A model generated the notes under the pieces. That model saw only the letters and a program-made list of their open reading frames with translations. It had not been told where the DNA came from and searched no databases. A stretch of 64,000 nucleotides of DNA from Wenyingzhuangia marina (GTDB lineage: Bacteria > Bacteroidota > Bacteroidia > Flavobacteriales > Flavobacteriaceae), in assembly GCF_900130035.1 (NCBI RefSeq), contig NZ_FQXQ01000002.1, forward strand, positions 248,001 to 312,000, written 5' to 3'. Numbering within the stretch: position 1 is the first letter of the stretch; every line of letters begins with the position of its first letter. This document shows positions 42,533 to 61,488 of the stretch, piece by piece. Made by a program: the position numbers and the translations under genes.

Positions 42533-43579
42533 ATGGGAATGACCAAATTTATTACCATTGATGAAAATTCAAGGGTACCAAAATACCAACAAATAGTAGA
42601 CTCTATCATTCACAACATATCAATAGGGAATTTTGTAATAGATCAAAAAATTCCTTCAATAAACATGTTTAGTGAAGAATTTTATTTGTCTAGAGATACT
42701 GTAGAAAAAGCTTATAGCATTTTAAAGCAACGCAACATTATTTCTTCTATTAGAGGTAAAGGTTATTATATTACAAGAACCAAACTAATATCAAAAGTTA
42801 ATATCCTGTTTTTAGTTAACAAACTAAGCACGTATAAAACTAGGATTTATGATTCTTTTATCAACACTATAGGAGCAAATTCACATGTGGATATTCACGT
42901 ATATCACTGTGACGAATCTGTCTTTTTAAGTTTGTTAAATAAATATAAATCTAGTTATGATTATTATGTAATCATGCCACATTTTAAAACTGACAACTTA
43001 AGACATATTAGTTTTACAGATGAGGTATATAATGCCATTCAAAAAATACCCAAAGAAAAATTAGTTGTATTAGACAATACCAAACTTGGTGCTGATGGTG
43101 ACATCATTGAAGTTTATCAAGACTTTGAAAACGACATTTATGATGCATTGAATAAAGGAATAAATAAAATAAAACAATATGAACATATTATATTAGTATA
43201 TCCTTCAAAATCTGTATACCCATATCCTAGAAGAATTTTACATGGGTTCAGAAAATTTTGTGTAGAAAACAAACTAGATTTTGAAATTCTTGACGAGGTT
43301 TATGATGATATTATTTTAAAAAGAGGAGATTTATTTGTCACCATAGAGGAATCAGACCTTGTTAAATTAATCAAACAAATTAGAGAAGATGAATATGTTT
43401 TAGGAAAAGAAATAGGAGTTATCTCCTATAACGACACACCTTTAAAAGAACTTCTTGGCATCACAGTAATGTCTACCGATTTTAAGATTATGGGGGAAAC
43501 TGCTGCTAAAATGATATTAAACAAAGAAAAAGGAAAAGTAAAAATTCCTTTTAACTTTATTGATAGAAAATCAATTTAA
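42533..43579 (+). CDS. GntR-family regulator with sugar-binding-protein-like domain, next to the rha operon
   Basis: The 348-residue protein has a GntR winged helix (about residues 15-80: PKYQQIVDSIIHNIS, IPSINMFSEEFYLSRDTVEKAYSIL) and a C-terminal periplasmic-binding-protein-like domain (about 90-340) of the LacI sensor type. It is a paralogue of the protein encoded at 52808-53848: both contain YHCDES, YDYYVIMPHFK, IYQDFEND and end in an RKSI tail. It lies directly upstream of the rhamnose operon with its own terminator, so it is the best local candidate for the rhamnose-responsive regulator. Confidence 0.9.
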   Translation: MGMTKFITIDENSRVPKYQQIVDSIIHNISIGNFVIDQKIPSINMFSEEFYLSRDTVEKAYSILKQRNIISSIRGKGYYITRTKLISKVNILFLVNKLSTYKTRIYDSFINTIGANSHVDIHVYHCDESVFLSLLNKYKSSYDYYVIMPHFKTDNLRHISFTDEVYNAIQKIPKEKLVVLDNTKLGADGDIIEVYQDFENDIYDALNKGINKIKQYEHIILVYPSKSVYPYPRRILHGFRKFCVENKLDFEILDEVYDDIILKRGDLFVTIEESDLVKLIKQIREDEYVLGKEIGVISYNDTPLKELLGITVMSTDFKIMGETAAKMILNKEKGKVKIPFNFIDRKSI

Positions 43580-43589
43580 AAAACATCAA

Positions 43590-43627
43590 AAAACCAATTT
43601 AATATATATTAAATTGGTTTTTTTTTA
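43590..43627 (+). terminator. Terminator after the GntR gene
   Basis: AAACCAATTTAATAT and ATATTAAATTGGTTT form a long perfect stem followed by nine T residues. It separates the regulator from the rha operon. Confidence 0.88.
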
Positions 43628-43649
43628 AAATTAATTTAACTCCAACAGT

Positions 43650-43690
43650 ACAGTACAGGATAGAAACACTGTACTCATATCATACTTTTG
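43650..43690 (+). promoter_or_regulatory. Candidate activator site and promoter of the rhamnose operon
   Basis: ACAGTACAGGATAGAAA (43650-43666) is 16 bp upstream of TACTTTTG (43683-43690), a perfect TAnnTTTG -7 box, 37 bp before the rhaEW ATG. AGTACAG (43652-43658) and CTGTACT (43669-43675) form a 7-bp inverted repeat across the -33 position, where the usual TTTG is missing. The same 17-mer with the same spacing occurs at 19452. Confidence 0.65.
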
Positions 43691-43726
43691 GATCATTACA
43701 TAATATTATTACATCAAAAATTAAAA

Positions 43727-45832
43727 ATGGGAAATCAGACTAAAAACTTCAAATACGTTGACTATCTGTGGGACAATGAGAAAGCAAATGCTTTGGGAGA
43801 TGATCAAGTAGCTTTATTCTTATACCGTTCTAATATATTAGGAGCAGACCTAAGAATAACCAATTACGGTGGTGGTAACACTAGCTGTAAAACAATTGAA
43901 ACAGATCCTTTAACAAATGAAGAAGTTGAAGTAATGTGGGTAAAAGGTTCTGGTGGAGACATTGGAACTTTAGATAGAGCTGGTATTGCTGGTTTATACA
44001 CAAAGAGATTAAGAGATTTAAAAAATGTATACGGTGGTTTAGAAGATGAAGATCGTATGGTTGGTTTATTTGATCACTGTATTTACGATTTAGACAGTAA
44101 AGCCCCATCAATTGATACACCTTTACATGGTTTATTACCATTTGCTCATATAGATCACTTACACCCTGATGCTTTAATTGCTGTTGCTGCAGCAAAAGAC
44201 AGTGAAAAAGTTACCAAAGAAATTTGGGGTGACACTATGGGATGGGTGCCTTGGCAACGTCCAGGTTTTGATTTAGGTTTACAGTTAGAAAAATGTTTGG
44301 CTGATAATCCTGGAATTAGAGGTATTGTTCTGGGTTCTCACGGTTTATTTACTTGGGGAGACACGTCTTATGAATGTTATATGAACAGTTTAGAAGTTAT
44401 TGAAATGGCTTCTGAATATATTGAGAAAAAAATCGCTGAAAAAGGAAGTGTTTTTGGCGGTCAAAAAATTGAAAGTTTACCAAAAGATGAGCGTTTAGAA
44501 AAAGCAGCTCAAATTATGCCAGTCTTAAGAGGTTTATGTTCTTCTGAAAACAGAATGATTGGACACTTTGCTGATTCTGATACTATTATGGAATACATCA
44601 ATAGTAACGATTTAGAAAGATTAGCTCCTATGGGAACTTCTTGTCCAGACCACTTCTTAAGAACTAAAATTCAACCTTTAGTTTTAACATTAGATAAAAA
44701 TGAAGATTTATCTGATACCGAAGCAATCTTAAAAAAATTAGAACCTGCATTTGAAGCTTATAGAGCTGAATATACAGAATACTATAATACTTGTAAAAAA
44801 GATAACAGCCCTGCTATTCGTGATGCAAATCCAGTAATTATTATTTATCCAGGAGTGGGTATGTTTAGTTTCGCTAAAAACAAACAAACAACACGTGTAG
44901 CTAATGAATTCTATGTAAACGCTATTAACGTTATGCGTGGTGCTGAAGCAATTACTGAATATACTTCTTTGCCAAGACAAGAAGCTTTTGATATTGAGTA
45001 CTGGTTATTAGAAGAAGCTAAATTGCAACGTATGCCAAAAGAACAACCATTGTCTCGTAAAGTTGCTTTAGTAACAGGAGCCGGTGGAGGAATTGGTAAG
45101 GCAATTGCGGATAAATTAGCTGCTGAAGGTGCTAATATTGTTTTAACTGATATTAACGAACAAAGCTTAATAGAAGCTAATGCTACTTATAAAAGAGACA
45201 TTGCCACTTATGCTATTTGTGATGTAACTAGCCCAGAATCTATTGCTTCTGCTTACAAAAAAGCTTGTATAGAGTTTGGAGGTGTTGACATTGTTGTACA
45301 CAGTGCTGGGTTAGCAATTTCTAAATCTTTAGAAGATACTACAGATAAAGACTGGAATATTTTACAAAGTATTTTAGTTAAAGGTCAGTTTGATTTAGCA
45401 AAGCAGTTTTCTGCAATTACTCGTAAACAAGGATTAGGAGGAGACTACATTTCTATTGCAAGTAAAAACGGATTGGTTGCCGGACCAAACAACGTTGCAT
45501 ACGGAACAGCTAAAGCTGCACAACAACACATGGTACGTTTATTAGCTGCTGAATTGGCTAAAGATAAAGTACGTGTAAATACAATAAACCCTGATGGAGT
45601 TATTGTTGGTAGTAAAATTTGGGAAGGTGCTTGGGCTGAAGGTAGAGCCAAAGCCAACGGAATTACCGTTGAAGAATTACCAGCATTTTACGCTAAAAGA
45701 AATTTATTGAATGAAATTATTACCCCTGCAGATATTGCAAATGGAGTTTTCACTTTTGTTGGAATTCTTGATAAATCTACAGGAAATATCATCAATGTAG
45801 ATGGTGGTATGGCTAACGCTTTCGTAAGATAA
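43727..45832 (+). CDS. rhaEW: Bifunctional L-rhamnulose-1-phosphate aldolase / L-lactaldehyde dehydrogenase
   Basis: ATG at 43727 gives 701 residues (MGNQTKNFKYVDYLW); an upstream in-frame ATG at 43688 lies inside the promoter -7 box and is rejected. The N-terminal half is a class II aldolase (YGGGNTSCK, WVKGSGGD, FAHIDHLHPDALIAV, GSHGLFTWG). The C-terminal third is a short-chain dehydrogenase with VTGAGGGIGKAIA and the YGTAK catalytic motif. This fusion is known in rhamnose pathways that cleave rhamnulose-1-phosphate to DHAP and L-lactaldehyde and oxidise the latter. First gene of the rha operon. Confidence 0.93.
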   Translation: MGNQTKNFKYVDYLWDNEKANALGDDQVALFLYRSNILGADLRITNYGGGNTSCKTIETDPLTNEEVEVMWVKGSGGDIGTLDRAGIAGLYTKRLRDLKNVYGGLEDEDRMVGLFDHCIYDLDSKAPSIDTPLHGLLPFAHIDHLHPDALIAVAAAKDSEKVTKEIWGDTMGWVPWQRPGFDLGLQLEKCLADNPGIRGIVLGSHGLFTWGDTSYECYMNSLEVIEMASEYIEKKIAEKGSVFGGQKIESLPKDERLEKAAQIMPVLRGLCSSENRMIGHFADSDTIMEYINSNDLERLAPMGTSCPDHFLRTKIQPLVLTLDKNEDLSDTEAILKKLEPAFEAYRAEYTEYYNTCKKDNSPAIRDANPVIIIYPGVGMFSFAKNKQTTRVANEFYVNAINVMRGAEAITEYTSLPRQEAFDIEYWLLEEAKLQRMPKEQPLSRKVALVTGAGGGIGKAIADKLAAEGANIVLTDINEQSLIEANATYKRDIATYAICDVTSPESIASAYKKACIEFGGVDIVVHSAGLAISKSLEDTTDKDWNILQSILVKGQFDLAKQFSAITRKQGLGGDYISIASKNGLVAGPNNVAYGTAKAAQQHMVRLLAAELAKDKVRVNTINPDGVIVGSKIWEGAWAEGRAKANGITVEELPAFYAKRNLLNEIITPADIANGVFTFVGILDKSTGNIINVDGGMANAFVR

Positions 45833-45849
45833 TTACAATATTTACTTTC

Positions 45850-45892
45850 TAAAACTCCCATAGAGGTTACACCATTATGGGAGTTTTTTTTC
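45850..45892 (+). terminator. Hairpin with T tract between rhaEW and rhaI
   Basis: AAAACTCCCATA and TATGGGAGTTTT pair perfectly around a 13-nt loop and are followed by a T run, 18 bp after the rhaEW stop and 14 bp before rhaI. It has all marks of an intrinsic terminator inside an apparent operon, so it may give partial read-through and lower expression of the distal genes. Confidence 0.8.
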
Positions 45893-45905
45893 AAAAAACA
45901 ATAAA

Positions 45906-47186
45906 ATGAAATTACAAAATCAACAAATTCTAGATGTAAATAAAAAGATTCTTGAAGAACATAACGATAATTTTGAATTTTTAGCAAACAAACTAACTAA
46001 AAACGGTTATGATGTAAATGCTATTTTATCAAAGTTATCTGAATTTCAAGTAGCAATTCCTAGCTGGGCTTTAGGTGCAGGAGGAACTCGTTTTGGACGT
46101 TTTGGTTTTTATGGTGAACCAACTACACTTGAACAAAAAATAGAAGATGTTGGAATTTTACATGCCTTAACTCAAACTGCTGGGGCTGTATCTTTACACA
46201 TTCCTTGGGATGTACCACAAGACTACAATGCTGTTAGCGAATTAGCTTCTTCTTTAGATATTAAATTTGATGCAGTAAACTCTAACACATTTCAAGATCA
46301 AAAAGATGCTAAGGAATCTTATAAATACGGTTCTTTAAGTAACACTAGTCAAGCAGTACGTGAACAAGCTATTCAACACAATATTGATGTGATTAAAATT
46401 GGAGAAAAATTAGGATCTAAAGCTTTAACAGTTTGGTTGGCTGATGGTTCTTCTTTCCCAGGTCAAAATAACTTTCAAACAGCTTTTCAAAATACTCAAG
46501 ATAGTTTAAAAACAATTTATAAGGATATTCCTGAAGATTGGAAAATGTTAATTGAGTACAAGCCTTACGAACCAAACTTTTATAGTACTGTCATTCAAGA
46601 TTGGGGTGCTTCATTAATGTTAGCTAACGAATGTGGAGACAAAGCTTATACTTTGGTTGATTTAGGTCACCATTTGCCAAATAGCAACATAGAACAAATT
46701 GTTTCTATTTTAAGTTTAAAAGGTAAATTAGGAGGTTTCCATTTTAATGATAGTAAATACGGAGACGATGATTTAACTGTTGGTAGTATCAAACCTTATG
46801 CTTTATTCTTAATCTTTAACGAATTGGTATACGGAATGGCTAATAACCCTCAAAATCCAGATTTGGCTTGGATGATTGATGCAAGTCATAACATTAAAGA
46901 TCCTTTAGAAGATTTAATCCAATCTTTAGAAGCAATACAAGAAGCATTTGCAAGAGCGTTATTGGTTGATCAAGCTGCTTTAAAAGCTGCTCAATTAGAC
47001 AATGATGTAGTTAAATGTCAAGAAATATTACAAGGGGCTTACAGAACAGATGTTCGTCCTTTAATTGAAAAAGCTAGATTAAACAGAGGTGGTGCTATTA
47101 GTCCTATTAAAGCATACCGAGAATTAGATGTAAGAAATTATTTAATTAAAGAAAGAGGTAGAAATACAGTAGCAACTGGTCTATAA
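45906..47186 (+). CDS. rhaI: L-rhamnose isomerase (RhaI type)
   Basis: The 426-residue TIM-barrel protein is of the Pseudomonas-type RhaI family rather than the E. coli RhaA type: IPSWALGAGGTRFGRFG near residue 50, LHIPWDVPQDY, the metal-binding residues in MLIEYKPYEP, LVDLGHH and GFHFNDSKYGDDDL, and WMIDASHNIKDPLEDLI. It interconverts L-rhamnose and L-rhamnulose. It lies between rhaEW and the kinase gene, 9 bp before the latter. Confidence 0.93.
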   Translation: MKLQNQQILDVNKKILEEHNDNFEFLANKLTKNGYDVNAILSKLSEFQVAIPSWALGAGGTRFGRFGFYGEPTTLEQKIEDVGILHALTQTAGAVSLHIPWDVPQDYNAVSELASSLDIKFDAVNSNTFQDQKDAKESYKYGSLSNTSQAVREQAIQHNIDVIKIGEKLGSKALTVWLADGSSFPGQNNFQTAFQNTQDSLKTIYKDIPEDWKMLIEYKPYEPNFYSTVIQDWGASLMLANECGDKAYTLVDLGHHLPNSNIEQIVSILSLKGKLGGFHFNDSKYGDDDLTVGSIKPYALFLIFNELVYGMANNPQNPDLAWMIDASHNIKDPLEDLIQSLEAIQEAFARALLVDQAALKAAQLDNDVVKCQEILQGAYRTDVRPLIEKARLNRGGAISPIKAYRELDVRNYLIKERGRNTVATGL

Positions 47187-47195
47187 TCTATTTAC

Positions 47196-48572
47196 ATGAA
47201 ACAAAAAGTAACTGCAGTCTTCGACATCGGAAAAACGAATAAAAAATTCTTTCTCTTTGATAAAAAATACAAAGAAGTTTATAGAGAATATGCTCGTTTT
47301 GATGAAATAACTGACGAAGACGGTTATCCTACAGAAAACTTACCTGAATTACAAAAATGGTTGAAAGAATTATTTCACCGTATTTTAGATTCAGAAGAGT
47401 ATAATGTAAAAGCAATCAATTTTTCAACCTATGGGGCTAGTTTTGTTCATTTAGATGAAAACGGAGAGTTATTAACTCCCCTATACAACTACACCAAACC
47501 TATGGATGAAGATTTGATTGCTTCATTTTACGAGAAATATGGACCTGAAGAAGAATTTACAAAGAATACAGGTTCTCCAAATTCAGGAATGCTAAACTCT
47601 GGTATGCAACTATATTGGATAAAACATACTAAGCCAGAAATCTATAAAAAGATTAAGTTTTCTTTACACTTACCCCAGTACATGAGTTATTTATTTACAG
47701 ACATTGCCTTAAGTGAATACACAAGTATTGGTTGCCATACAGGATTATGGGATTACGAAAAGAAAGACTATCACGAATGGGTTTATAAAGAAGGAATAAA
47801 CACTAAACTTCCTCAAATAGTATCTACAGAAACTAGTATTAATATGAATTACAATGGTAAACGTATTAAAATTGGTGTAGGTATTCATGATAGCTCTGCT
47901 GCCCTATTACCATATGTAAGAAGCTCTAAAAAGAAATTTGTCTTAGTATCTACAGGAACTTGGAGTGTGTCTTTAAATCCATTTACTCAAACAAATTTAA
48001 CTAAAGATGAAATACTTAGTGGTTGTTTAAATTATATGAGAATTAATGGTAAAGCAGTTAAAGCCGCTCGTTTATTACTTGGTAGTGAATACAAATCTCA
48101 AGCACATAAGTTAACCGAAATTTACGGTGTTCCTCAAGAAAATCATAAAACGGTAGCTTTTGATTACGATTTGTATACAAAACTACTAGAAAATTTTTCT
48201 TACTGTTTTAAATGGAATGTAATAGAAAACAAAAAAGCACCTGAAGAAACAATTCTGAAACATAAAACTTTTGAAGAAGCTTATCATCAATTAATGATGG
48301 AGTTGGTATTGATTCAAGTAGAAAACATCAAAATAGCAACCGGTGAAGATCCTGAAATCAAAAGATTATTTGTTGATGGTGGATTTAGTGATAATGATAT
48401 TTTTATCAAACTATTATCTCATCACTTTAGAGGGATGAAATTAAGATCTACCAATTCATCATTAGGATCGGCATTAGGGGCTGCCATTGCTATTTCAGAT
48501 TCAAAATTAAATTCAAAGTTTTTAAAAACTAATTATTCATTAAAAAAACACGTGCCATTTATAATTACGTAA
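47196..48572 (+). CDS. rhaB: FGGY-family rhamnulokinase
   Basis: The 458-residue protein has the sugar-kinase fold: TAVFDIGKTNKKFFLFD (phosphate-1), INFSTYGASFVHLDENG, GVGIHDSSAALLPY (the catalytic Asp region), LVSTGTWSVSLNPF and RLFVDGGFSDNDIFIKLLS. FGGY kinases phosphorylate various sugars; the rha operon context points to L-rhamnulose. It starts 9 bp after rhaI and precedes the permease gene by 29 bp. Confidence 0.9.
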   Translation: MKQKVTAVFDIGKTNKKFFLFDKKYKEVYREYARFDEITDEDGYPTENLPELQKWLKELFHRILDSEEYNVKAINFSTYGASFVHLDENGELLTPLYNYTKPMDEDLIASFYEKYGPEEEFTKNTGSPNSGMLNSGMQLYWIKHTKPEIYKKIKFSLHLPQYMSYLFTDIALSEYTSIGCHTGLWDYEKKDYHEWVYKEGINTKLPQIVSTETSINMNYNGKRIKIGVGIHDSSAALLPYVRSSKKKFVLVSTGTWSVSLNPFTQTNLTKDEILSGCLNYMRINGKAVKAARLLLGSEYKSQAHKLTEIYGVPQENHKTVAFDYDLYTKLLENFSYCFKWNVIENKKAPEETILKHKTFEEAYHQLMMELVLIQVENIKIATGEDPEIKRLFVDGGFSDNDIFIKLLSHHFRGMKLRSTNSSLGSALGAAIAISDSKLNSKFLKTNYSLKKHVPFIIT

Positions 48573-48601
48573 TTTTTTAAAATAAAAATCAAACTATTAC
48601 T

Positions 48602-50014
48602 ATGAGTCAAACTAATATCAACGAGATACAGGAAATTGAAGAAATTGCGGGTGGGGAATTCGAAAGAGAACCCGTTCCTCAATCCAAGTTAAAAAGTTGG
48701 AAAAGTTTTATCGGAATGTACGCAGGTGAACACGCTGCAGGTACTGAATTTGTGATTGGACCTTTATTTTTAACCACTGGTGTAAGTGCTTTTGATTTAA
48801 TTATTGGACTGATGCTAGGAAATCTTTTAGCTGTATTAAGTTGGCGTTTTTTAACAGCCGAAGTTGCGGTTAAAAACAGATTGACTCTATATTACCAATT
48901 AGAAAAAATTTGTGGTAAAAAATTAGTAACCGGATATAATTTAGCTAACGGAATTTTGTTTTGTTTTTTAGCCGGATCTATGATTACAGTATCTGCAACA
49001 GCAGTAGGAATTCCTTTTAATATGGAAATGCCTACACTTACAGATACCATGCCTAATGGAATGACCTGGATTGTTATTGTACTAGCCATTGGAGCAGTTA
49101 TTTCGTTAATTGCATCTAAAGGCTATGATACTGTTTCTAAAGCAGCAAACTGGATGTCTCCAGTAATTGTATTAGGATTTGTAGCTTGTGGTGTAGTTGC
49201 TTTAGGTCAATTAGAGGTACATAGTTTTTCTGATTTTTGGAACATATGGGGTGAAGGTTCAGAACCTTTTCCTGGTCAAATAAAATATACGTTTTGGCAT
49301 ATTGTAATTTGGTCTTGGTTTGCAAATGGTGCAATGCACATTGGTATGTCTGACTTATCAGTATTCCGTTTTGCAAAAGAAGCTAAAGCTGGTTGGGCAA
49401 CTGCTGCTGGTATGTATGTAGGTCATTATATGGCTTGGATTGCTGCTGCATTAATCTATGCTGTCTATATTAAAACTCCTGAAGCACAAGCTTTGTTAGG
49501 TAATAATTTAGCCCCATCTGTAGCTCCAGGTCCTTTGGCCTATAATACCATTGGTATTTTTGGAATCTTAGTTGTGGTTTTGGCTGGATGGACAACTGCA
49601 AACCCTACAATTTACAGAGCTGGTTTAGCATTTCAAGCTATTATGCCTAAACTATCTACTTTTTGGGTTACTATTATTGCAGGTACAGTAGCAACTGTTG
49701 CAGGATTATTCCCTGCTTTTGCAATGAAATTATTAGATTTTGTTGCTTTCTATGGATTTATTTTAGCACCATTTGGAGCAGTAATTGTATTTGAACATTT
49801 CTTTGCTAAAAAGTTTGGAGTTACTAAAAACTATGCTGAAGTAGCTGGAATAAAATTTAACAAATCTGTATTATTAGCATGGGCTATTAGTTTTGGATTG
49901 TTCTACTTTATTTCTGTTAAATTTGATATATTCTTATCATTTGTAACGTTACCAACATGGATTTTATGTGGAATACTTTACTTAGTATTTAGTAAAGTAT
50001 TTCAGAAAAAATAA
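48602..50014 (+). CDS. NCS1-type permease, predicted L-rhamnose transporter
   Basis: The 470-residue protein has about 12 membrane helices and resembles the nucleobase:cation symporter-1 (purine-cytosine permease) family: the pattern FIGMYAGEHAAGTEFVIGP in helix 1 and LAGWTTANPTIYRAGLAFQ further on. The acidic N-terminal 30 residues are cytoplasmic. It is the last gene of the rha operon, where other bacteria have RhaT or ABC transporters. Rhamnose uptake is inferred from context; NCS1 members are usually known for nucleobases and related compounds. Confidence 0.85.
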   Translation: MSQTNINEIQEIEEIAGGEFEREPVPQSKLKSWKSFIGMYAGEHAAGTEFVIGPLFLTTGVSAFDLIIGLMLGNLLAVLSWRFLTAEVAVKNRLTLYYQLEKICGKKLVTGYNLANGILFCFLAGSMITVSATAVGIPFNMEMPTLTDTMPNGMTWIVIVLAIGAVISLIASKGYDTVSKAANWMSPVIVLGFVACGVVALGQLEVHSFSDFWNIWGEGSEPFPGQIKYTFWHIVIWSWFANGAMHIGMSDLSVFRFAKEAKAGWATAAGMYVGHYMAWIAAALIYAVYIKTPEAQALLGNNLAPSVAPGPLAYNTIGIFGILVVVLAGWTTANPTIYRAGLAFQAIMPKLSTFWVTIIAGTVATVAGLFPAFAMKLLDFVAFYGFILAPFGAVIVFEHFFAKKFGVTKNYAEVAGIKFNKSVLLAWAISFGLFYFISVKFDIFLSFVTLPTWILCGILYLVFSKVFQKK

Positions 50015-50095: not shown

Positions 50096-51157
50096 CTATA
50101 AAATATCGTTTGAATCCTGTAAATTTTCCTTGATAATAATTTCAACTGGAATATCAATGTTTAGCGAGACAGTTTGATCTTGAGTAATTTTTTGGAAAAT
50201 TTTCATCAAAGATTGGTAACCTTGTAACTCTGGTTTTTGATTAATTAAATATTGAATACGTTCTTCTTTTAAATAATCTATATTTTTTTTATTTAAATCA
50301 AAGCCTAAAATCTTCACATTATTATAACTTTTATCACTTAAAAATTTTGCAAAAATATAAGACCTAGAATTGGTTACAAATACACCTTTTTTTGTTTTTA
50401 AACTTAATAGGTTGTCTAATATTTTATTCTCTTCTAATTTAGCATCAATTGTATGTACTACTGAATGTATTTTAAGATTGGGGTTTTTTGATATTAAAAA
50501 GTTTTTAAATCCCAGCTCTCTTTCTTTTTGATTTCCTTGAAACTCTGATTTTTCTACCAATGTAAGCGCTATATAAATACCATCATCATCAATAGTATTG
50601 TACAATAGTCTCCCTGCAACCTCACCTGCTTTGGTAGAGTTTTGATAAATAAAACTAGTATTTAATACTTTATCGTTTTTACCATCAATAAACACAAGTG
50701 GTTTATTTTCTTTATTTGCATATTGAACTAATTTATTAGACAACTCCTCAAACAAACTTACTGTGATAATTCCATCATAATTTTGACCTAATATTTAATC
50801 TACTATTTTTTTATAGTGATTCTTGTCATCAGAACTAAAATCAATAAACTCAAGCTCTACTCCAAAATCACTTAATTCATTTAAAGCTTTTTTAACTCCC
50901 ATTCTTGGAAGATTCCAATAACTTATACCATTAATAACTTGAGGTAAAACTACGGCAATACTAACTTTTTTACCTGCAGAAAGTTTTAATCTACTAGCAA
51001 TATTATTTTTAACATAACCTGTTTGTTTAACAATCTCTAAAACTCTTTGTTTTGTTTTAGGAGAAACCCCTGTTCGATTATTTAATACTCTATCAACAGT
51101 ACCTATAGAGGTATTTGATAGTTTCGCTATTTCTTTTATTCCTACCTGTTTTACCAT
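50096..51157 (-). pseudogene. LacI-family regulator interrupted by an in-frame stop codon
   Basis: On the minus strand one continuous frame runs from ATG 51157 to a stop at 50096 with a single internal TAA at 50797-50795 (codon 121). The N-terminal part (120 residues) has a LacI helix-turn-helix (IKEIAKLSNTSIGTVDRVLN) and the linker region. After the stop the same frame continues ILGQNYDGIITVSLF and into the rest of a LacI-type sensor domain (VFIDGKN, AGRLLYNTI, GVFVTNSRSY, ILGFDLNKKN), giving about 353 codons, a normal LacI length. The stop is therefore a nonsense change, not a frameshift. A TTG at 50755 could allow re-initiation of the C-terminal part, without DNA binding. It lies just downstream of uxaC and was probably its regulator. 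Confidence 0.88.
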
Positions 51158-51205
51158 CTTAGATCATAAGATTAATCTTTTACCAAAAGTCAAAATTTAT
51201 AAACA

Positions 51206-51243
51206 AAAAAGGCCTGCTAAATATATTATATAGCAAGCCTTTA
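51206..51243 (-). terminator. Terminator after uxaC
   Basis: On the minus strand AAAGGCTTGCTA pairs with TAGCAGGCCTTT (one mismatch) and is followed by a T run. It separates uxaC from the broken LacI gene. Confidence 0.8.
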
Positions 51244-51261
51244 AGTTAAAAATATAATAGA

Positions 51262-52688: not shown

Positions 52689-52700
52689 GTTAACGTTAAC
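52689..52700. promoter_or_regulatory. LacI-type operator at the uxaC transcription start
   Basis: GTTAACGTTAAC is a perfect 12-bp palindrome with a central CG, the usual form of a LacI-family operator. It directly follows the -7 box of the uxaC promoter, so a bound repressor would block transcription. Confidence 0.7.
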
Positions 52701-52730
52701 AAATGTATTTTATTTTATTCATAATTCAAA
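52700..52730 (-). promoter_or_regulatory. uxaC promoter
   Basis: On the minus strand TTTG (52730-52727) and TACATTTG (52707-52700) are separated by 19 bp, matching the Bacteroidota -33/-7 consensus. The predicted start lies near 52694, about 38 bp before the uxaC ATG, inside the palindromic operator. Confidence 0.7.
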
Positions 52731-52773: not shown

Positions 52774-52809
52774 TAAAAAAACGCTCAATTCTAATTGAGC
52801 GTTTTTTTT
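52774..52809. terminator. Terminator after the second GntR gene
   Basis: AACGCTCAATT and AATTGAGCGTT form a perfect stem with flanking A and T runs. Read on the minus strand it ends the GntR transcript, immediately after its stop codon. Confidence 0.85.
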
Positions 52810-53848
52810 AAATAGATTTTCTATTTATAAAGCTGAAAGTATTTTTAATTTTACCTTTTTTTCTTTCCATAAGCATTTTAGCCGCTGTTTTCCCCATTTT
52901 TTTGAAATCTGTAGATATTACAGCAATCCCTAATAATCTTTTTAAAGGAGTTTCATTATAAGATAAAACACCTATGTCTTTTCCTATTTTTAATTTATTA
53001 TCGTTAATAGCGTCAATTACATTCACCAAATCATCATCATCTATAATAAACTGCAACTCTCCTTTTTGTAAATTTAAATTATCTGTGCTTGAAACTTCAT
53101 AATCCATATTGTGCTCAATACAGAATTTCTTACAACCTCTATAAATTTTATGCTGATAAGAAAACTGCTCGTTTTCTGGAATTCTTACAATCATTTTTTT
53201 ATGATTGATTATTTTATCCTTACCATTTAACAGTGCGTTATAAACATCGTTTTCAAAATCTTGATAAATCTCTATAATATCACCATCAACAGATAAATCA
53301 TTATTATCTAAAATCACCAATTGATTTCTAGGAATTTTTTTGATAACCTCTACAGCTTTATCTGAAAAAGAAAATTCTTTTGCATGATTACTTTTAAAAT
53401 GAGGCATTATTACATAATAATCATAATTACCAATATTCTTTTCTAATAGTTTTAAAAAATGTGATTCATCACAGTGGTAAATCTCAATATCAATATTAAA
53501 ATCATCTCCCAACTCATCTATAAAAGAATTATAAACTCTTGATTTATAATCATTCATCTTATTCATTAAATACAGAATATTTTTCTTTACCGAAATTTCT
53601 GTACTTTGTACATAAGTTGTTTTTCCTTTATTAGCTGCTATTATATTTTTACTTTTTAATACTTTATATGCTTTTTCAACAGTGTCTCTAGAAACTTTAT
53701 ATTCTTTGCTGAATACATTAATAGAAGGTAGTGTTTGATTTTTTTTTATATTTCCTTTAGAAATGTTATCAATAAAACAATCTACTATTTGTTGATACTT
53801 AAATTTATTGGGGTCTGTATCAAATTTTAAATCTTTTAACATATTCAT
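52808..53848 (-). CDS. Second GntR-family regulator, paralogue of the one beside the rha operon
   Basis: The 346-residue protein has a GntR winged helix (KYQQIVDCFIDNISKG, LPSINVFSKEYKVSRDTVEKAYKVL) and a sugar-sensor domain like that at 42533. Side-by-side reading shows the same landmarks in order (YHCDES, YDYYVIMPHFK, IYQDFEND, GKDIGVLSYNETPLKRLLGI, and a terminal NRKSI), about half of the residues being identical by eye. It lies between uxaC and the pectate lyase gene. It probably senses a pectin-derived sugar; the ligand is unknown. An alternative start is Met3. Confidence 0.9.
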   Translation of the reverse strand: MNMLKDLKFDTDPNKFKYQQIVDCFIDNISKGNIKKNQTLPSINVFSKEYKVSRDTVEKAYKVLKSKNIIAANKGKTTYVQSTEISVKKNILYLMNKMNDYKSRVYNSFIDELGDDFNIDIEIYHCDESHFLKLLEKNIGNYDYYVIMPHFKSNHAKEFSFSDKAVEVIKKIPRNQLVILDNNDLSVDGDIIEIYQDFENDVYNALLNGKDKIINHKKMIVRIPENEQFSYQHKIYRGCKKFCIEHNMDYEVSSTDNLNLQKGELQFIIDDDDLVNVIDAINDNKLKIGKDIGVLSYNETPLKRLLGIAVISTDFKKMGKTAAKMLMERKKGKIKNTFSFINRKSI

Positions 53849-54059
53849 TTTTCAGGGGATTATTAGCTACTTTTAATTCGATCGCAATTTAAAAAAAAGG
53901 AATCAATTATTAGACCAAACAACAGCTACAACTATAAAACCAATCAGTTGTTTTTTATTAAACCATATAACAAATTAATAGATTTTTTACAATTAAAACT
54001 TTCAAAATTGATCATTGGTCAATTCTCCATGAATGAAATTAAATACACTTATAAAAAAA

Positions 54060-57047
54060 TTACTCGATAATTACTTTTAAAGTGTTATTTAAATTATCTC
54101 CGATAATATGAAGAATATAAATTCCTGATTTTATTCTATTAGATCTTTCTAAAATAAATTGATATTTATTTTTTGCTTCTAACTCTTGCTTAAACACAAC
54201 TTTACCTGCAATATCTTTTAAAATAGCTGTGATATAATTTTTATTATATGATGGTATATTAATATTGATTTGTTCTTTTACTGGGTTAGGATATACTTTT
54301 ACCAAACTACTATTTTTAGTGATTTTTTTATTACTTAATGATACATTTTGATATAGTTCTAAAACTTCCGTTTCATTTAAGGCATAATTAAATATTTTAA
54401 GTTCATCTATCATTCCTTTATATGGTGCAGGAGCTGTACCAGCCAACAATTCATATTCACCTATATTTCCTAATATCAAATCACTTACTTCAGCAATTCC
54501 AGTTACGCCTGTCTCATCTATTTCATTTGAAAAAACTCCGTTTATGTATAATCTTAATTTATGATTTTTGACATCTCTCATGACCACAATATTCTCCCAT
54601 TCGCCAGTAAAAACTGGAATGGCACTTGATGATAGTTCTTTTTTAATTACATTATCGTCTATAGCAAAACGTAGTTGACTGTCTTTGAATTCAATATTAT
54701 ATCTTTTTCCTGTAGTTCCTAAACTTACATTCGTTTTAAAAGAACCTTTACATAATAGATAAGCACTATTAGATACCGTAGGCATTAATTCTGGTCCAGC
54801 TTTCATCCAAACAGAAATCGTAAAAGAACTATTATTTAAAAATATTTGATCTTTATTTGGAATGTTTACGATATAACTATTATTAGGAGAAGTAGAAAAA
54901 TCTATAGCATTTCCAGATTTTCCAGTAACTCTAACATCTGCATTATCATAATTATCATCTAAAACACCAATATTGTTATAACTTGTTTTATCATCAATAT
55001 CTCCTCCATCAAAAACGGATTCGTTAAAAGGCCAATATCCTACCATTTCTTCAGGAACATTTGCTATGGTTTTAAAATTCCAAACATCACCTTTTGTTGT
55101 ACCTTTATCATTAGTTGCATCAACTCTCCAATAATAATAAGTGTTTGATAATAAATTTTTCAGTTCATATGATGAATTACTATAAACAACTTCTGATAAT
55201 TTAGTAAGATTATTTTCTTCTGTTCCAATATAAATAGTAAAAGTTGATGTGTTATCACTACCAGCCCATTTTAAAGTTGCTTTTCCATCAAATAGTTCAA
55301 CATAATCATATCCTAAACTAGGAGATATTATGGATGCTTTAGAAGGTGCTGTTGGAATTTGTGGAGTGATTACTGATGAAACCTTACTATAGACTGAAGA
55401 ACCTGAACTATTTATTGCTTTAACTCTATAATAATATTTAGTATTAGGTATTAAATCAACTTCATTATAACTTGTTATATTAGCATTTAGATTTGCAATA
55501 ACTATAAAATCTATACCATTGGTAGAACGTTCTAAAATGTATGCTTCTTCCTTATCAGTATTATCATTCCATTGAACTGTTAAAGTACTGTTAGGAGGCG
55601 TTTCTGTAGACATCTGATTCGAAAAACTAACACTTGATGGAGGTATAATAAAATCTGGAGGCGTTATATTTACCAATCCGTTAATATAAACCTCAATATT
55701 CAAATAGGGTGCATTTGTAGCACTTACTGCCAAAGCATCACTATTATCGTTTTTATTTAATCCATTATTTTCTTCCCAATCATCAGGCATTCCATCATTA
55801 TCTGAATCTAAAGGAGCTGGAGCTGCATATACATGACCTACTCCTCCATTAATAAAAGGCAAATCTGTTTCTCTATATACATAAAAAGCTTTTAAACCTT
55901 TAGATTTTAAATCGTCAATCATTAAACTATCAACCTGATCTCTTTTTGGATATGATGCACCAACACTTTGTATTATTTTTTCAAAAGCTTGTTGAGCAGT
56001 TAGTAGTGGATTTTTCATCGGATAATCATATGGAGTTGACAATATAGTTGACATATCACCTGTAGGATATCCATCTGTATCAGCTGTTACTAATGTTCCA
56101 TTTAAAGTTCCATCTCTATTATTATCATAATAGTTTCCAGATCCATATAAATAAAAATTTGAGTTACCTCTACTAAAAGGTGTATTTCTAGTAGTACTAG
56201 TATTAGGCCCACCTATAAAATAATTATTAATAATATTAACATTAGAAACACCATCAGAATCTCCCATAATGTAAGCTTCCCCAGATTCTGTATGCCCGTA
56301 AGTATTTCCATAATTTCCCCAATTGTAAACTACATTATTTACAAATTCATTAATTCCTTTAACTTTTGGATTTCTAGTTTTATTTCCAGTATATAAATTA
56401 CCTATAAGACTTACTTTTCCTCCTGAAGGCTGAATTAATCCTCCTGCAGAGTGATTATGGCGATGTAAACCTTGACCAATAATTGAATTTTGAATGGTAA
56501 TATTATCTGGCTTTCTACCTTTACCATCCCAATTTATTGAAAAGACTTCATCTGTTCCCCATGAGAATGTCATATGATCAAAAATCATATTTTCTCCATT
56601 AGACAAGCCAGAAGCATCTTGATTTTTTGCTGCTCCACCAAAACGAATTCTAATATAACGAGCAATAGTATTACTAGCTCCCGAAAAAGTTACTCTAGGA
56701 CCATACAAAACTATTCCTTCTCCAGTTGCTGTCTGACCTGCAATGGTTGTATTGTTTGCTACTACAATTTGAGACTGTAAATTAATGATTCCTCCTACTT
56801 TAAAAATAACAAATCTACCAGGTTGACTTACGGCATCTCTAAAAGATCCTGGTCCACTATCGTTTAAATTAGTTACCAAATAAATTTCTGGATCTACATA
56901 TCCTCTTGCTCCAGTGGTATATTTTCCAAAACCTGTTGCTTCAGGAAATGCCAATGTTTGTGCTTTTAAATTCTCAAAAGAAATAAAAAACACTAAAATG
57001 ATATAAAATTTAAATCCATAATTTAAAAGTGATATTTTCTTTTTCAT
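54060..57047 (-). CDS. T9SS-secreted PL1-type pectate lyase with FN3 and LamG-like domains
   Basis: The 995-residue protein has a signal peptide (about 1-29, ending LKAQ), a right-handed beta-helix pectate lyase domain (about 30-400; LAFPEATGFGKYTTGARG, TTIAGQTATGEGI, NMIFDHMTFSWGTDEVFS, HRHNHSAGGLIQP), a calcium-type loop DSDNDGMPDDWE (near 420), two fibronectin type III domains (about 470-665), a LamG/concanavalin-like domain (about 680-890) and a C-terminal type IX sorting domain (VKVYPNPVKEQINI onward). It should cleave polygalacturonate or a related uronan at the cell surface or outside. It is monocistronic, with a LacI-like palindrome upstream. Confidence 0.9.
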   Translation of the reverse strand: MKKKISLLNYGFKFYIILVFFISFENLKAQTLAFPEATGFGKYTTGARGYVDPEIYLVTNLNDSGPGSFRDAVSQPGRFVIFKVGGIINLQSQIVVANNTTIAGQTATGEGIVLYGPRVTFSGASNTIARYIRIRFGGAAKNQDASGLSNGENMIFDHMTFSWGTDEVFSINWDGKGRKPDNITIQNSIIGQGLHRHNHSAGGLIQPSGGKVSLIGNLYTGNKTRNPKVKGINEFVNNVVYNWGNYGNTYGHTESGEAYIMGDSDGVSNVNIINNYFIGGPNTSTTRNTPFSRGNSNFYLYGSGNYYDNNRDGTLNGTLVTADTDGYPTGDMSTILSTPYDYPMKNPLLTAQQAFEKIIQSVGASYPKRDQVDSLMIDDLKSKGLKAFYVYRETDLPFINGGVGHVYAAPAPLDSDNDGMPDDWEENNGLNKNDNSDALAVSATNAPYLNIEVYINGLVNITPPDFIIPPSSVSFSNQMSTETPPNSTLTVQWNDNTDKEEAYILERSTNGIDFIVIANLNANITSYNEVDLIPNTKYYYRVKAINSSGSSVYSKVSSVITPQIPTAPSKASIISPSLGYDYVELFDGKATLKWAGSDNTSTFTIYIGTEENNLTKLSEVVYSNSSYELKNLLSNTYYYWRVDATNDKGTTKGDVWNFKTIANVPEEMVGYWPFNESVFDGGDIDDKTSYNNIGVLDDNYDNADVRVTGKSGNAIDFSTSPNNSYIVNIPNKDQIFLNNSSFTISVWMKAGPELMPTVSNSAYLLCKGSFKTNVSLGTTGKRYNIEFKDSQLRFAIDDNVIKKELSSSAIPVFTGEWENIVVMRDVKNHKLRLYINGVFSNEIDETGVTGIAEVSDLILGNIGEYELLAGTAPAPYKGMIDELKIFNYALNETEVLELYQNVSLSNKKITKNSSLVKVYPNPVKEQININIPSYNKNYITAILKDIAGKVVFKQELEAKNKYQFILERSNRIKSGIYILHIIGDNLNNTLKVIIE

Positions 57048-57159
57048 AAAAAGTAATATTTTAGTTTTTACAGTAATTAATAAATCATCCTACACTATAT
57101 TATTAATATCATCAATTATAAATTTAAAAAACATAATATTCATAATAAAAACAACAAAA

Positions 57160-57173
57160 TGTTATCGATTACA
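57160..57173. promoter_or_regulatory. LacI-type palindrome upstream of the pectate lyase gene
   Basis: TGTTATCGATTACA is palindromic apart from one base pair and has a central CG (ATCGAT core). It lies 113 bp before the lyase start codon. The type matches LacI-family operators, but the sequence differs from the uxaC operator. Confidence 0.5.
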
Positions 57174-57248
57174 CAAAAACAATAATACTAAATATTAAAG
57201 AAATTACAACTATTAAAAACAAACTATTATAAAATTATCCTAAACAAA

Positions 57249-57281
57249 AAAAAGCTCTTGAAATATATCTAAGAGCTTTTT
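57249..57281 (-). terminator. Terminator after the DUF2264 gene
   Basis: AAAAAGCTCTT and AAGAGCTTTTT pair perfectly around an 11-nt loop. On the minus strand a T run follows. It shows that the pectate lyase gene has its own promoter. Confidence 0.85.
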
Positions 57282-57298
57282 GTTATAATTTATAAATA

Positions 57299-59329
57299 TC
57301 AAAACTTAACTTCATTGGTTTCTCCATTTCTATATTTAATGGTAACCCTGTTTTCTTTTGTTGTTGAAATAATACTTTTTATAGGAACCAATTCTTTAGA
57401 TTTCCATTTTTCTCCAGCCTTTTTCCATAGCATTAACGTCGCATAAATTTTTGAGTCTTTTATTTCTTTATACTCATCCACCACAACATTTAATACTTTA
57501 CTGTTATTACTCTCTGGATGTAAACCTGTAGCAGAAACTACTTCAGTATTTTCCCAACCTAAAATTGGAATGATTGCTAATTGATATACGCCATTATCTA
57601 TAATAGTTACTTCATAACCTTTAACCTTTTTATGTGTGGTTACTATTTCTTTATCCAATTTTGGTAGTGCATAATGCCCCAAACGCATTTCTATAAGTTT
57701 GTCACTTATGTTTTTATCTACTCTTAAAATCCCATTTTCCAATGGAATATCTGCTAAATTAAATCTGATACTTTCATCCGTTTCTAACTTTACATCTCTG
57801 TAATAAATACCTTCTTCAAATTTTTTAAAAGTGTACAACCTAAAGGCTTCCCATTTATTTTGATGATTTTTCACAACATAATTCATCGCTACTTCACCAT
57901 TTTCTCCATCAGCTTGCCATGGAAAAGCACTATTATAAGATAAGCGATTATAGTTTTCTGTAGAACGAAATTTTTGCCAATCGTCTTTTACTTTTTCATG
58001 ACACCAAGCTCTTATCTCTGAAGCTCCAATATTAGGATAATCTGTAATTAAAATTTCTGATTTTCCTTGGTATTTATTGTAAACTTTTCCTTTTTCTAAT
58101 TCATCATCCCAAGCACCATTATTTTCTTTGGCCGTCCAAAATGAACTATCATCTGGTACTAACAAACCGAAAAATGCTTTTCCCATCCAATATACACTTC
58201 CTCTACAGCTATATACTTGCACTGCTGGCTCAAAAGCTCCATAAAAACCTAAAGTTGGAACATTATCTTTCATAAAATCAGGATGTGTAAAAAACTGTTT
58301 AATAACTCCTGATGAAATTCTTCTCATCCAACCATAATTCACATTTTTATCATCCTGAAACCCCATTAACGGAAATGGAACAATAGCTCCTGTTCTGTAG
58401 CTAATGCTTCTACCATACATAATCATTTTTCCATCTTTACTAAACAAGTATGGATAATTATCTTTTAATCCATCAAAATTTGATTCGAATTTTGCTGCAA
58501 TCTCAGGGTAATATTCTTTTCCAAAATATTCAGACCAAAGCATTCCATACATCTGAAAAGCCCACATACTGTAATAATCATAAGCAGGACTGTCATTATA
58601 CCATCCATTTCCTCGATAAGCCAATAAAGATTTTTCTAAATATTTGACCAATAAGTCTTCATTTACTTGATAACCTTGTTCTTTAAAAAAACTCAAAACA
58701 AAAATGTTAAAGAATTTCCAATTAGAATCAACAGTAGGTCCATCACCGTAGCTAAGCATAATTCTAGCCAATTCATCTTTTTGTTCTTTTGGCAAAGGTT
58801 CCCATAAAACTTCTGGGTTTACCAACATTGATAATGCTAAAGCTCCAAATTCAACTAAATTCTGACTAGGTCCTCCATTTTTAGCCCTAGGAACAATGTA
58901 TGATTTACTTGTAGGATCTATTAATTTCCCTATCTGATAACGATAATAGTCTGCAACCTTAATATTATTGATTACCAAATCAGGTCTTTCCTTTAATATA
59001 GGAGAAGCTATAAAAAGTGTTCTACACAATCCTTCTAATTTCTCTGTCGGCACTCTACCTTCATTATGCGGATAACTTTTTCCTGGTTGCTTAGGAAATT
59101 TCATCGGATCATCCAATGTTTTAATATAACTAAAAGCTCCCTCTAACAAATACATTGCAGCATCTTTCCAATGTTGCTTTGTCATTCCTGTATAAGGACT
59201 TAACTCATAATTTGGATTTTCTATTTTAAAAACAGAATTATTGTTTTTACTCGACAATACCTCATTGCTCTGTGCATTTGTATATAAACACAATAAAAAA
59301 ACACTTAGGGTTGCAAATTTCTTAATCAT
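57299..59329 (-). CDS. Secreted DUF2264 (GH154-like) protein
   Basis: ATG at 59329 gives 676 residues with a normal signal peptide (MIKKFATLSVFLLCLYTNAQ); the longer frame to 59365 would overlap the GH16 gene and spoil the signal. The first 380 residues form a helical (alpha/alpha)-barrel domain with the DUF2264 pattern (GRVPTEKLEGLCRTLF, LVEFGALALSML, YRGNGWYNDSPAYDYYSMWAFQMYGMLWSEYFG, MIMYGRSISYRTG). The rest is beta-rich. DUF2264 proteins include, as I recall, beta-glucuronidases of GH154. The start lies one base after the GH16 stop, so the two are coupled. A glucuronidase acting on pectic side chains is plausible. Confidence 0.83.
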   Translation of the reverse strand: MIKKFATLSVFLLCLYTNAQSNEVLSSKNNNSVFKIENPNYELSPYTGMTKQHWKDAAMYLLEGAFSYIKTLDDPMKFPKQPGKSYPHNEGRVPTEKLEGLCRTLFIASPILKERPDLVINNIKVADYYRYQIGKLIDPTSKSYIVPRAKNGGPSQNLVEFGALALSMLVNPEVLWEPLPKEQKDELARIMLSYGDGPTVDSNWKFFNIFVLSFFKEQGYQVNEDLLVKYLEKSLLAYRGNGWYNDSPAYDYYSMWAFQMYGMLWSEYFGKEYYPEIAAKFESNFDGLKDNYPYLFSKDGKMIMYGRSISYRTGAIVPFPLMGFQDDKNVNYGWMRRISSGVIKQFFTHPDFMKDNVPTLGFYGAFEPAVQVYSCRGSVYWMGKAFFGLLVPDDSSFWTAKENNGAWDDELEKGKVYNKYQGKSEILITDYPNIGASEIRAWCHEKVKDDWQKFRSTENYNRLSYNSAFPWQADGENGEVAMNYVVKNHQNKWEAFRLYTFKKFEEGIYYRDVKLETDESIRFNLADIPLENGILRVDKNISDKLIEMRLGHYALPKLDKEIVTTHKKVKGYEVTIIDNGVYQLAIIPILGWENTEVVSATGLHPESNNSKVLNVVVDEYKEIKDSKIYATLMLWKKAGEKWKSKELVPIKSIISTTKENRVTIKYRNGETNEVKF

Positions 59330-59330
59330 T

Positions 59331-60188
59331 TTATTCTTGTTTTTGATAAACTCTAACATAGTCAATTATATATTTTGATGGAAATTTTACATCAGAAAAA
59401 TCTCCGCCATTTACCCCTCCCACAGCTAAATTTAATAGTAAATATTGTGGCTTATGGAATGGATTTTTATGATTTGTTAAATTATAAGTTTCCTTCAAAT
59501 CAACTTCATTCAACAATTGATCATCAACATATAGTTTAATAGAGCTTTTATCCCACTCCATTTTCCACACATGAAACTCATTTACCCAATTTTCATTATT
59601 AAATTTTGAAATTGGATATTTGTTAGCTCTCCAAACAGGTTTCCATTTACTATTAGATTCCCATGCCACATTGGCTAACAAATCTCCTTTGTAAAACTCC
59701 ATAATATCAATTTCTCCATTAGTAGGCCAATTTGGCTCCAGCCCAAGTGTCCAAAAAGCTGGCCACAATCCTATTTGGGTTGGGATTTTAGCACGCATTA
59801 TAAATATACCATAAGTAAATTCTTGCTTGTTTTTACTTATTAAACAACTCGAAGTAATATGAATTAAATCTCTATTTTTTCGCCAATCTTTATCCTCTAT
59901 AGTGGTAAAGTCAGGATTCATTTTATTTTCATTTCTAGCCTCAATAACAAGATATCCATCTTTACAAAATGCATTTTCTTTTTGATACCATTGATTTTCC
60001 TGATTTCTTACAAAACCAGTTTCATAATCCCAATTTTGATCATTTGGTCTTCCATCTTTTTTAAACTCGTCACTCCAAACCAACTGATATCCTTTTATTT
60101 TTGGAATCACTTCTTTTTTTAAGCTTGAGCAACTTACTATACACAACACACATATAAAAATATTAAAAAGAGCTTTGCATTTTTTCAT
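59331..60188 (-). CDS. GH16 lipoprotein (beta-glucanase/galactanase fold)
   Basis: The 285-residue protein has a lipoprotein signal (Cys20 in CIVSCSS) and a single GH16 jelly-roll domain: LVWSDEFKKDG, the catalytic motif GEIDIMEF with Glu159, Asp161 and Glu164 (the E-x-D-x-x-E form with beta-bulge), LWPAFWTLG, and YIIDYVRVYQ at the end. GH16 enzymes with this motif act on beta-1,3/1,4-glucans or galactans; the substrate here is uncertain. In a pectin-type cluster a galactan side chain is possible. It is coupled to the DUF2264 gene. Confidence 0.9.
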   Translation of the reverse strand: MKKCKALFNIFICVLCIVSCSSLKKEVIPKIKGYQLVWSDEFKKDGRPNDQNWDYETGFVRNQENQWYQKENAFCKDGYLVIEARNENKMNPDFTTIEDKDWRKNRDLIHITSSCLISKNKQEFTYGIFIMRAKIPTQIGLWPAFWTLGLEPNWPTNGEIDIMEFYKGDLLANVAWESNSKWKPVWRANKYPISKFNNENWVNEFHVWKMEWDKSSIKLYVDDQLLNEVDLKETYNLTNHKNPFHKPQYLLLNLAVGGVNGGDFSDVKFPSKYIIDYVRVYQKQE

Positions 60189-60278
60189 TTTCTATAAGAT
60201 AGAATTTTAATTAAAAGTGATACCCTACAAATTTCAATTAAATAACGATTCTTACAAGGTTTATTTTAATAAAAAAAA

Positions 60279-60310
60279 GGGTGTAAATCCTTATAAATAG
60301 ATTTACACCC
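60279..60310 (-). terminator. Terminator after the GH105 gene
   Basis: GGGTGTAAATC and GATTTACACCC pair perfectly around a 10-nt loop; a run of T follows on the minus strand. Confidence 0.88.
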
Positions 60311-60339
60311 TAAATTATATAATTTATAAAATTAGGTTT

Positions 60340-61488
60340 TTACTCTACAAAACGAGCCATTTCAGAAGCTGCTAAAAGAAAAGCTCCTACTCCAAAATCA
60401 GCTGTAGAGTTAATATCTACTACTTGACCAGGAATTGCTTTTTCACCTATTGGCTGAACATACCCTACTGCTCCATTTTCTTGTAATGCAACAGTTGTTA
60501 AATAATTCCATGATTTTTGCACTACTGGTAAATAAGTATCTTTATCTAAAATACCATTGTTAATTCCCCATAAATAACCATAAGTAAAAAATGAAGTTCC
60601 GCTTGTTTCCGGTCCTGGAGCATGTTCTAGATCTAAAATACTACGCGTCCAATAACCTTCATTTTGTTGAGCTTTTGCTAAAGCAGCAGCCATATCTTTA
60701 AAACGGTTTATATACTTTTGTTTGTGTTTTGCTGTATCAGGTAAGTCTTGAATAATTTTTGCATATCCTGCAAAAATCCATCCATCTCCCCTTGCCCAAA
60801 AATCTTTCTTTCCATTTACACTTTTGTGTTTAGGATATATGTATTTAGCATCTCTATAATATAAATCAGCCTCTTCATCATACATAATACTATTCGCATA
60901 AGTTAAATACTCCTCTAACTTTTCTAAGTACAATTCGTTCCCAGTTACGTTATATAACTTTGTCATCACAGGCATTACCATATATAAACCATCAACCCAC
61001 CACCAATAATCGTTATTAGGAGTACTCATTTGATATTCCATAACCTCTTTTGCACGAGCGATTTTTTTAGGATCATTTTTACCGGTAAAATTGTATAAAT
61101 CTATATAAGTCTGAAAACAAATTTGCCAATCTCCAAACAACACGTGCTTATCGTTTTCTCCATAATTATATCTCCATTCTGACTTGTTATTAGATTTAGC
61201 TCCCATCCATTCATTTTGCTCTGCCCAAGCCATAGAGTAATCTAGAAAAGATTGATTTTTAGTAACCTTATAAGCTTCCATGTTTCCTGTGTGGTAAGCT
61301 GCACGATTCCAAAAAGCATTCCCATGTTTAGGGTGGGTATTTTGCCAATGATTGTTTACTTTGTTAATAATACCTACCACTTCTTTTTTGGAATGATTTA
61401 TTCCTGTTGATTTTTTTAATGATTTACAACCAACCAAAAAAACTGTTATTAAAGCAAAAAGAATACTGAATGAATGTTTTAATTTCAT
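60340..61488 (-). CDS. GH105 unsaturated rhamnogalacturonyl hydrolase (lipoprotein)
   Basis: The 382-residue protein has a lipoprotein signal (Cys21 in FLVGCKS) and an (alpha/alpha)6 barrel of the YteR/GH105 type. Asp166 in WVDGLYM matches the catalytic Asp motif of YteR, and FWARGDGWIFAGYAK (Asp235) is the second family signature. GH105 enzymes remove the unsaturated uronic acid left by polysaccharide lyases, typically from rhamnogalacturonan (also from ulvan) oligosaccharides. It has its own promoter and terminator, so it is monocistronic. Confidence 0.92.
   Translation of the reverse strand: MKLKHSFSILFALITVFLVGCKSLKKSTGINHSKKEVVGIINKVNNHWQNTHPKHGNAFWNRAAYHTGNMEAYKVTKNQSFLDYSMAWAEQNEWMGAKSNNKSEWRYNYGENDKHVLFGDWQICFQTYIDLYNFTGKNDPKKIARAKEVMEYQMSTPNNDYWWWVDGLYMVMPVMTKLYNVTGNELYLEKLEEYLTYANSIMYDEEADLYYRDAKYIYPKHKSVNGKKDFWARGDGWIFAGYAKIIQDLPDTAKHKQKYINRFKDMAAALAKAQQNEGYWTRSILDLEHAPGPETSGTSFFTYGYLWGINNGILDKDTYLPVVQKSWNYLTTVALQENGAVGYVQPIGEKAIPGQVVDINSTADFGVGAFLLAASEMARFVE

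Follow-up and report, generated by a model that had tools for sequence, protein, structure and literature searches.

We found that the gene for a LacI-family regulator adjoining uxaC in Wenyingzhuangia marina is interrupted by one in-frame stop codon. We consider it probable that this is a recent nonsense inactivation of the repressor of uxaC: a regulator that would have repressed uxaC until released by a ligand has presumably lost its activity, and uxaC is predicted to be expressed now without inducer.

The lacI frame and its stop codon

The regulator pseudogene occupies positions 50096..51157, on the minus strand, of the window (the whole stretch of 64,000 nucleotides that was analysed). Translation gives a frame that starts with ATG and runs for 353 codons, or 354 with the terminal stop, and the sole internal stop is a TAA at codon 121 (50797-50795, that is, 50795..50797 of the window). 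The part open before the stop (50795..51157, minus strand) encodes 120 residues, comprising the HTH (residues 7-51), the hinge and ~53 residues from the start of the sensor domain, and 233 of the 353 residues are missing from the translated product. The part past the stop (codons 122-353; 50096..50794, minus strand) is open, with no frameshift and no further stop. With codon 121 read as X, the product matches the LacI HTH (PF00356, residues 7-51) with 47.1 bits against a cut-off of 27; when the stop is read through, the Peripla_BP_4 sensor (PF13407, residues 68-322) is matched with 104.6 bits, above the Pfam cut-off. The product thus retains the N-terminal HTH of the LacI/GalR family, and the C-terminal sensor and dimerisation core is recognizable only through read-through; the Pfam matches, together with a PDB match (below), make the boundary between the domains clear. 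An earlier note had described a 353-residue LacI frame with one in-frame TAA and the frame kept on both sides, cut past its DNA-binding domain; its coordinates and residue count proved correct, and the truncation was borne out.

Two further Wenyingzhuangia species have intact orthologs that match the frame in a gap-free alignment of 353/353 residues, so that the broken lacI is not a chance frame but a genuine gene carrying a single lesion. The gene has the make-up of a pseudogene, a disabling lesion inside a full-length homologous frame with intact orthologs elsewhere. The ortholog of W. gilva chi5 (G002; L038 8001-9062) is 75% identical and that of a further Wenyingzhuangia genome (G003; L039 16147-17208) is 66% identical, and both adjoin uxaC. 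Codon 121 is a sense codon in both relatives, Lys in W. gilva and Pro in G003, and is thus not a conserved position. Mean local identity to this genome is 86.9% for W. gilva and 81.7% for G003, and the highest genome identity reported for W. gilva is with W. marina (PMC10971456).

The earlier note had also suggested a phase-like change, for which the sequence offers no basis. The lesion is a base substitution in non-repetitive sequence, the frame is equal on both sides of it, and there is no repeat or inversion that would allow reversal; an A7 run upstream of the stop leaves the frame unaltered. Phase variation of lacI is, therefore, not supported.

The stop rests on one assembly, and a sequencing or assembly error, in which case lacI would really be intact and uxaC under normal control, would need only a single substitution. 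An intact gene, too, would be free of a second lesion and of any significant excess of amino-acid changes, as found here, and the preserved operator and promoter (below) agree with this explanation too. We nevertheless regard an error as unlikely. Because the frame is equal on both sides, it would have to be a substitution error, and such errors are seldom seen in the consensus of a finished draft genome. The stop sits on a 708-kb contig of a 3.24 Mb genome that is 99.97% complete in 11 contigs. When 400 kb of this genome was surveyed for lesions against a 347-kb contig of W. gilva, none of the ~95 near-full orthologs was frameshifted here, and no long gene apart from lacI had a stop in its middle, the other stops flagged being at extreme gene ends or in short, probably spurious frames. 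The assembly around lacI thus looks sound. In W. gilva, a frameshift interrupts the counterpart of a 334-residue gene of this genome (L070-L087, G002:C28, ~334760-335756). A second, independent loss, in the genome G355, was considered and rejected, since the single TAG flagged there turned out to be the natural terminator once the locus was read.

The predicted promoter and operator of uxaC, and the flanking genes

The predicted sole target of LacI is uxaC, which encodes glucuronate isomerase (PF02614; 51262..52656, minus strand). Upstream of it we predict a Bacteroidota promoter (52700..52730, minus strand) composed of TTTG (52730-52727), a 19 bp spacer and TACATTTG (52707-52700), an arrangement matching the published consensus TTTG/TAnnTTTG (PMC6847099). 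At the last base of TACATTTG begins the predicted operator GTTAACGTTAAC, a perfect 12-bp palindrome (52689..52700, unstranded) whose centre precedes the uxaC start codon by 38 bp. The putative site has what is expected of a LacI/GalR operator, namely a palindrome with a central CG on the promoter of the target gene, and, as it reaches into the last base of the -7 element, it would cover the uxaC transcription start, the classical position for a repressor.

GTTAACGTTAAC is identical in the three Wenyingzhuangia species, the flanking sequence being less conserved, and each of the three genomes has exactly one exact copy, at uxaC (chance expectation ~0.4 per genome). In all three, lacI directly follows uxaC, on the same strand, with a terminator-like hairpin in between. 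In this genome the uxaC-lacI gap (51158..51261, minus strand) contains the terminator-like hairpin AAGGCTTGCT...AGCAGGCCTTTTTT and no operator, and the hairpin points to a separate promoter for lacI. No operator was found upstream of lacI, the pectate lyase gene, the second GntR gene or the permease gene. Further LacI targets in this genome were rejected, since the only other candidates were ten one-mismatch sites, each within coding sequence. The broken LacI would, on this distribution, have controlled only uxaC here, and with its single exact operator at uxaC the latter is predicted to be constitutive. The earlier note had proposed derepression of uxaC and perhaps of the pectate lyase. The choice of uxaC as target is upheld by a predicted operator on its promoter that is kept across genera, and constitutive expression would be the expected consequence; control of the pectate lyase is not supported, given that the sole exact genomic copy of the operator is at uxaC.

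Two clusters flank lacI-uxaC in the window (42533-50014 and 52808-61488), one of rhamnose genes and one of pectate lyase/DUF2264/GH16/GH88 genes. The same two clusters are seen around the pair in W. gilva, as far as fetched. In G003 (L039), lacI-uxaC has the glycosyltransferase gene as its immediate neighbour on one side and a sulfatase-rich cluster on the other. Cargo may, thus, have been gained or lost around a fixed lacI-uxaC pair. The window also encodes two GntR-family regulators with a Peripla_BP_3 domain, one beside the rhamnose genes (42533-43579, plus strand) and one beside uxaC and the pectate lyase gene (52808-53848, minus strand); the pair is ~51% alike (window GntR against the W. 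gilva copy of the other). The latter regulator is a better candidate than LacI for control of the pectate lyase.

Regulator and operator in other genomes

A search for close LacI homologs in 400 genomes of the family identified 22 that carry the regulator; the comparison genomes were picked by kinship and are not fully independent. In the resulting tree the uxaC-linked LacI forms one clade (support 100/100, 21 rows), apart from the LacI of uxuAB and other paralogs. Exact GTTAACGTTAAC occurs in 20/22 genomes with this clade versus 5/33 without it (Fisher p 2e-8), and in 17/22 of the Flavobacteriaceae genomes with the clade it lies <=8 kb from LacI. The exceptions are G080, with a one-mismatch site at uxaC, G124 and G364, with the exact site elsewhere, and G149 and G183, with none. 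An exact match in G005 was discarded, as it lay inside a coding sequence. We found no relevant paper on an operator role of GTTAACGTTAAC or on a LacI/uxaC regulon in Bacteroidetes in a search that left subscription journals and regulon databases outside its scope.

Adjacency of uxaC and lacI is seen in the three Wenyingzhuangia species, and uxaC was found within the 20 kb fetched in 8/14 other LacI-bearing genomes. In 14 neighbourhoods, CG-centred palindromes of the form TCGTTAACGTTAACGA were noted upstream of the susC-like gene of the LacI-linked cluster and in the gaps between divergent genes, such as the one separating uxaC from a DUF1080-type gene. We think it somewhat more plausible than its opposite that the regulon of this LacI clade is wider elsewhere, taking in PUL genes in addition to uxaC, and that it shrank to one gene in Wenyingzhuangia, where it is now being lost and leaves an orphan operator. 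W. marina would then present a regulon collapse just after the death of the regulator.

The earlier note had placed the regulator in a 'uronate region'. The label calls for caution, since uxuA and uxuB lie on another contig beside an intact LacI of their own (L049 10726-11766) with a different predicted operator. A conserved palindrome, CGTGTnCGnACACG, is found upstream of uxuB and the uxuAB LacI in four Wenyingzhuangia genomes (L049 10627-10640 region; L050, L051, L052), and is a candidate operator of the uxuAB LacI. This protein resembles the broken one in belonging to the LacI family, in its association with uronate catabolism and in the recognition helix SIGTVDRV, but falls in a separate clade, is only ~33% identical, is paired with CGTGTnCGnACACG and is intact. 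With its own intact LacI and a different predicted site, uxuAB should, therefore, still be controlled here.

The LacI-uxaC pair is missing from three other Wenyingzhuangia species, in which the LacI of the other, uxuAB type adjoins a different uxaC (48-51% identical; G001:C5:67224-68612, G004:C211:103557-104945 and G006:C16:81975-83363). In two of these genomes, G001 and G006, this LacI sits with the distant uxaC (~50% identical) and a TRAP transporter. Probably uxaC was replaced along with its regulator within the genus.

Age, consequences and likeness to known repressors

The absence of a second lesion, together with the absence of a significant excess of amino-acid changes, makes the loss of lacI look young. 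About 5.8% of random substitutions in codons 122-353 would make a stop, and, under an assumed indel share of 10%, neutral divergence accumulated since the loss has a 95% upper bound of ~0.03 per site. Synonymous changes on the branch to the split from W. gilva (~0.25-0.6 per site) far exceed this bound, dS between this genome and W. gilva being 0.4-1.1. The undamaged codons 122-353 and the bound on divergence thus support a recent change, which the earlier note had raised as a possibility.

Counts of amino-acid changes unique to this genome and to W. gilva do not differ significantly, either in codons 1-120 (10 versus 7) or in codons 122-353 (22 versus 14, p 0.24). Relaxed selection on the dead part was, therefore, rejected on these relative-rate counts. 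In the maximum-likelihood tree the end branch is 0.21 here versus 0.11 in W. gilva, which is suggestive only, and synonymous sites are near saturation. Between the two intact relatives, G002 and G003, dN is 0.20 for LacI as compared with 0.03 for uxaC, 0.04 for hemH and 0.09 for the neighbouring glycosyltransferase. The difference between LacI and uxaC would speak for weak constraint on a regulator that evolves fast even where it is intact.

We propose that the intact LacI of the relatives presumably binds as a dimer to GTTAACGTTAAC, across the junction of the -7 element and the presumed uxaC transcription start, where it would block transcription until released by binding a uronate-derived ligand. 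The stop at codon 121 would leave the DNA-binding head with only part of the sensor attached, a product that could not form a normal dimer and is probably degraded. Expression of uxaC would then no longer require inducer, and uxuA and uxuB would stay under their own intact LacI. Two considerations count against this scheme: LacI proteins can also activate transcription, and the uxaC operator might be bound by a LacI paralog encoded in this genome.

LacI might also be functional despite the stop, if ribosomes read through the TAA or re-initiate beyond it, or if the 120-residue head holds the operator by itself. The HTH is intact, and the frame past the stop has evolved mostly conservatively, but recency accounts for the latter. 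No in-frame ATG follows soon after the stop, the next usable start being a TTG at 50755; we know of no TAA read-through signal in Bacteroidota, and LacI heads bind well only as dimers. We hold continued function to be very improbable.

A selected loss, in which constitutive uxaC is advantageous, for instance in a uronate-rich algal habitat, fits a catabolic target and a recent lesion. However, nothing separates selection from neutral decay, and constitutive expression of uxaC by itself would not necessarily increase flux, as uxuA and uxuB keep their own regulator. The apparently weak constraint on LacI also argues against a selective cause, which we judge improbable. With only one gene in the regulon, the cost of losing LacI is probably small, and the loss may be no more than neutral decay, which explains it equally well; the adaptation put forward in the earlier note is, thus, not supported.

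On the preferred reading, the lesion is a real, recent and ordinary pseudogenisation of a one-gene local repressor, and pseudogenised local repressors are common. The case is a clean example of a regulator that is lost with its binding site still intact, and since the operator can be read from ~20 other genomes the prediction is sharp: one gene, one site and one regulator. The predicted site assignments, GTTAACGTTAAC to this LacI clade and CGTGTnCGnACACG to the uxuAB LacI, are usable for annotating uronate regulation in marine Flavobacteriaceae.

Close counterparts of the broken copy are the orthologs of W. gilva and G003, which likewise adjoin uxaC and have the same single predicted operator on it; they are intact, whereas the copy here is cut. 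Among known structures, PDB 3gbv, a putative LacI-family regulator to which the entry title assigns no function, aligns with the sensor domain of the intact ortholog (residues 58-347, E 2e-31). With the LacI/GalR repressors LacI, PurR and CcpA (PF00356 plus Peripla_BP) the protein shares the architecture of an HTH followed by a sensor resembling periplasmic binding proteins, and also, as predicted, a palindromic operator with a central CG at a neighbouring catabolic gene's promoter. Unlike these repressors, the copy here is cut at residue 121, and its predicted operator, GTTAACGTTAAC, is that of the uxaC-linked Flavobacteriaceae clade.
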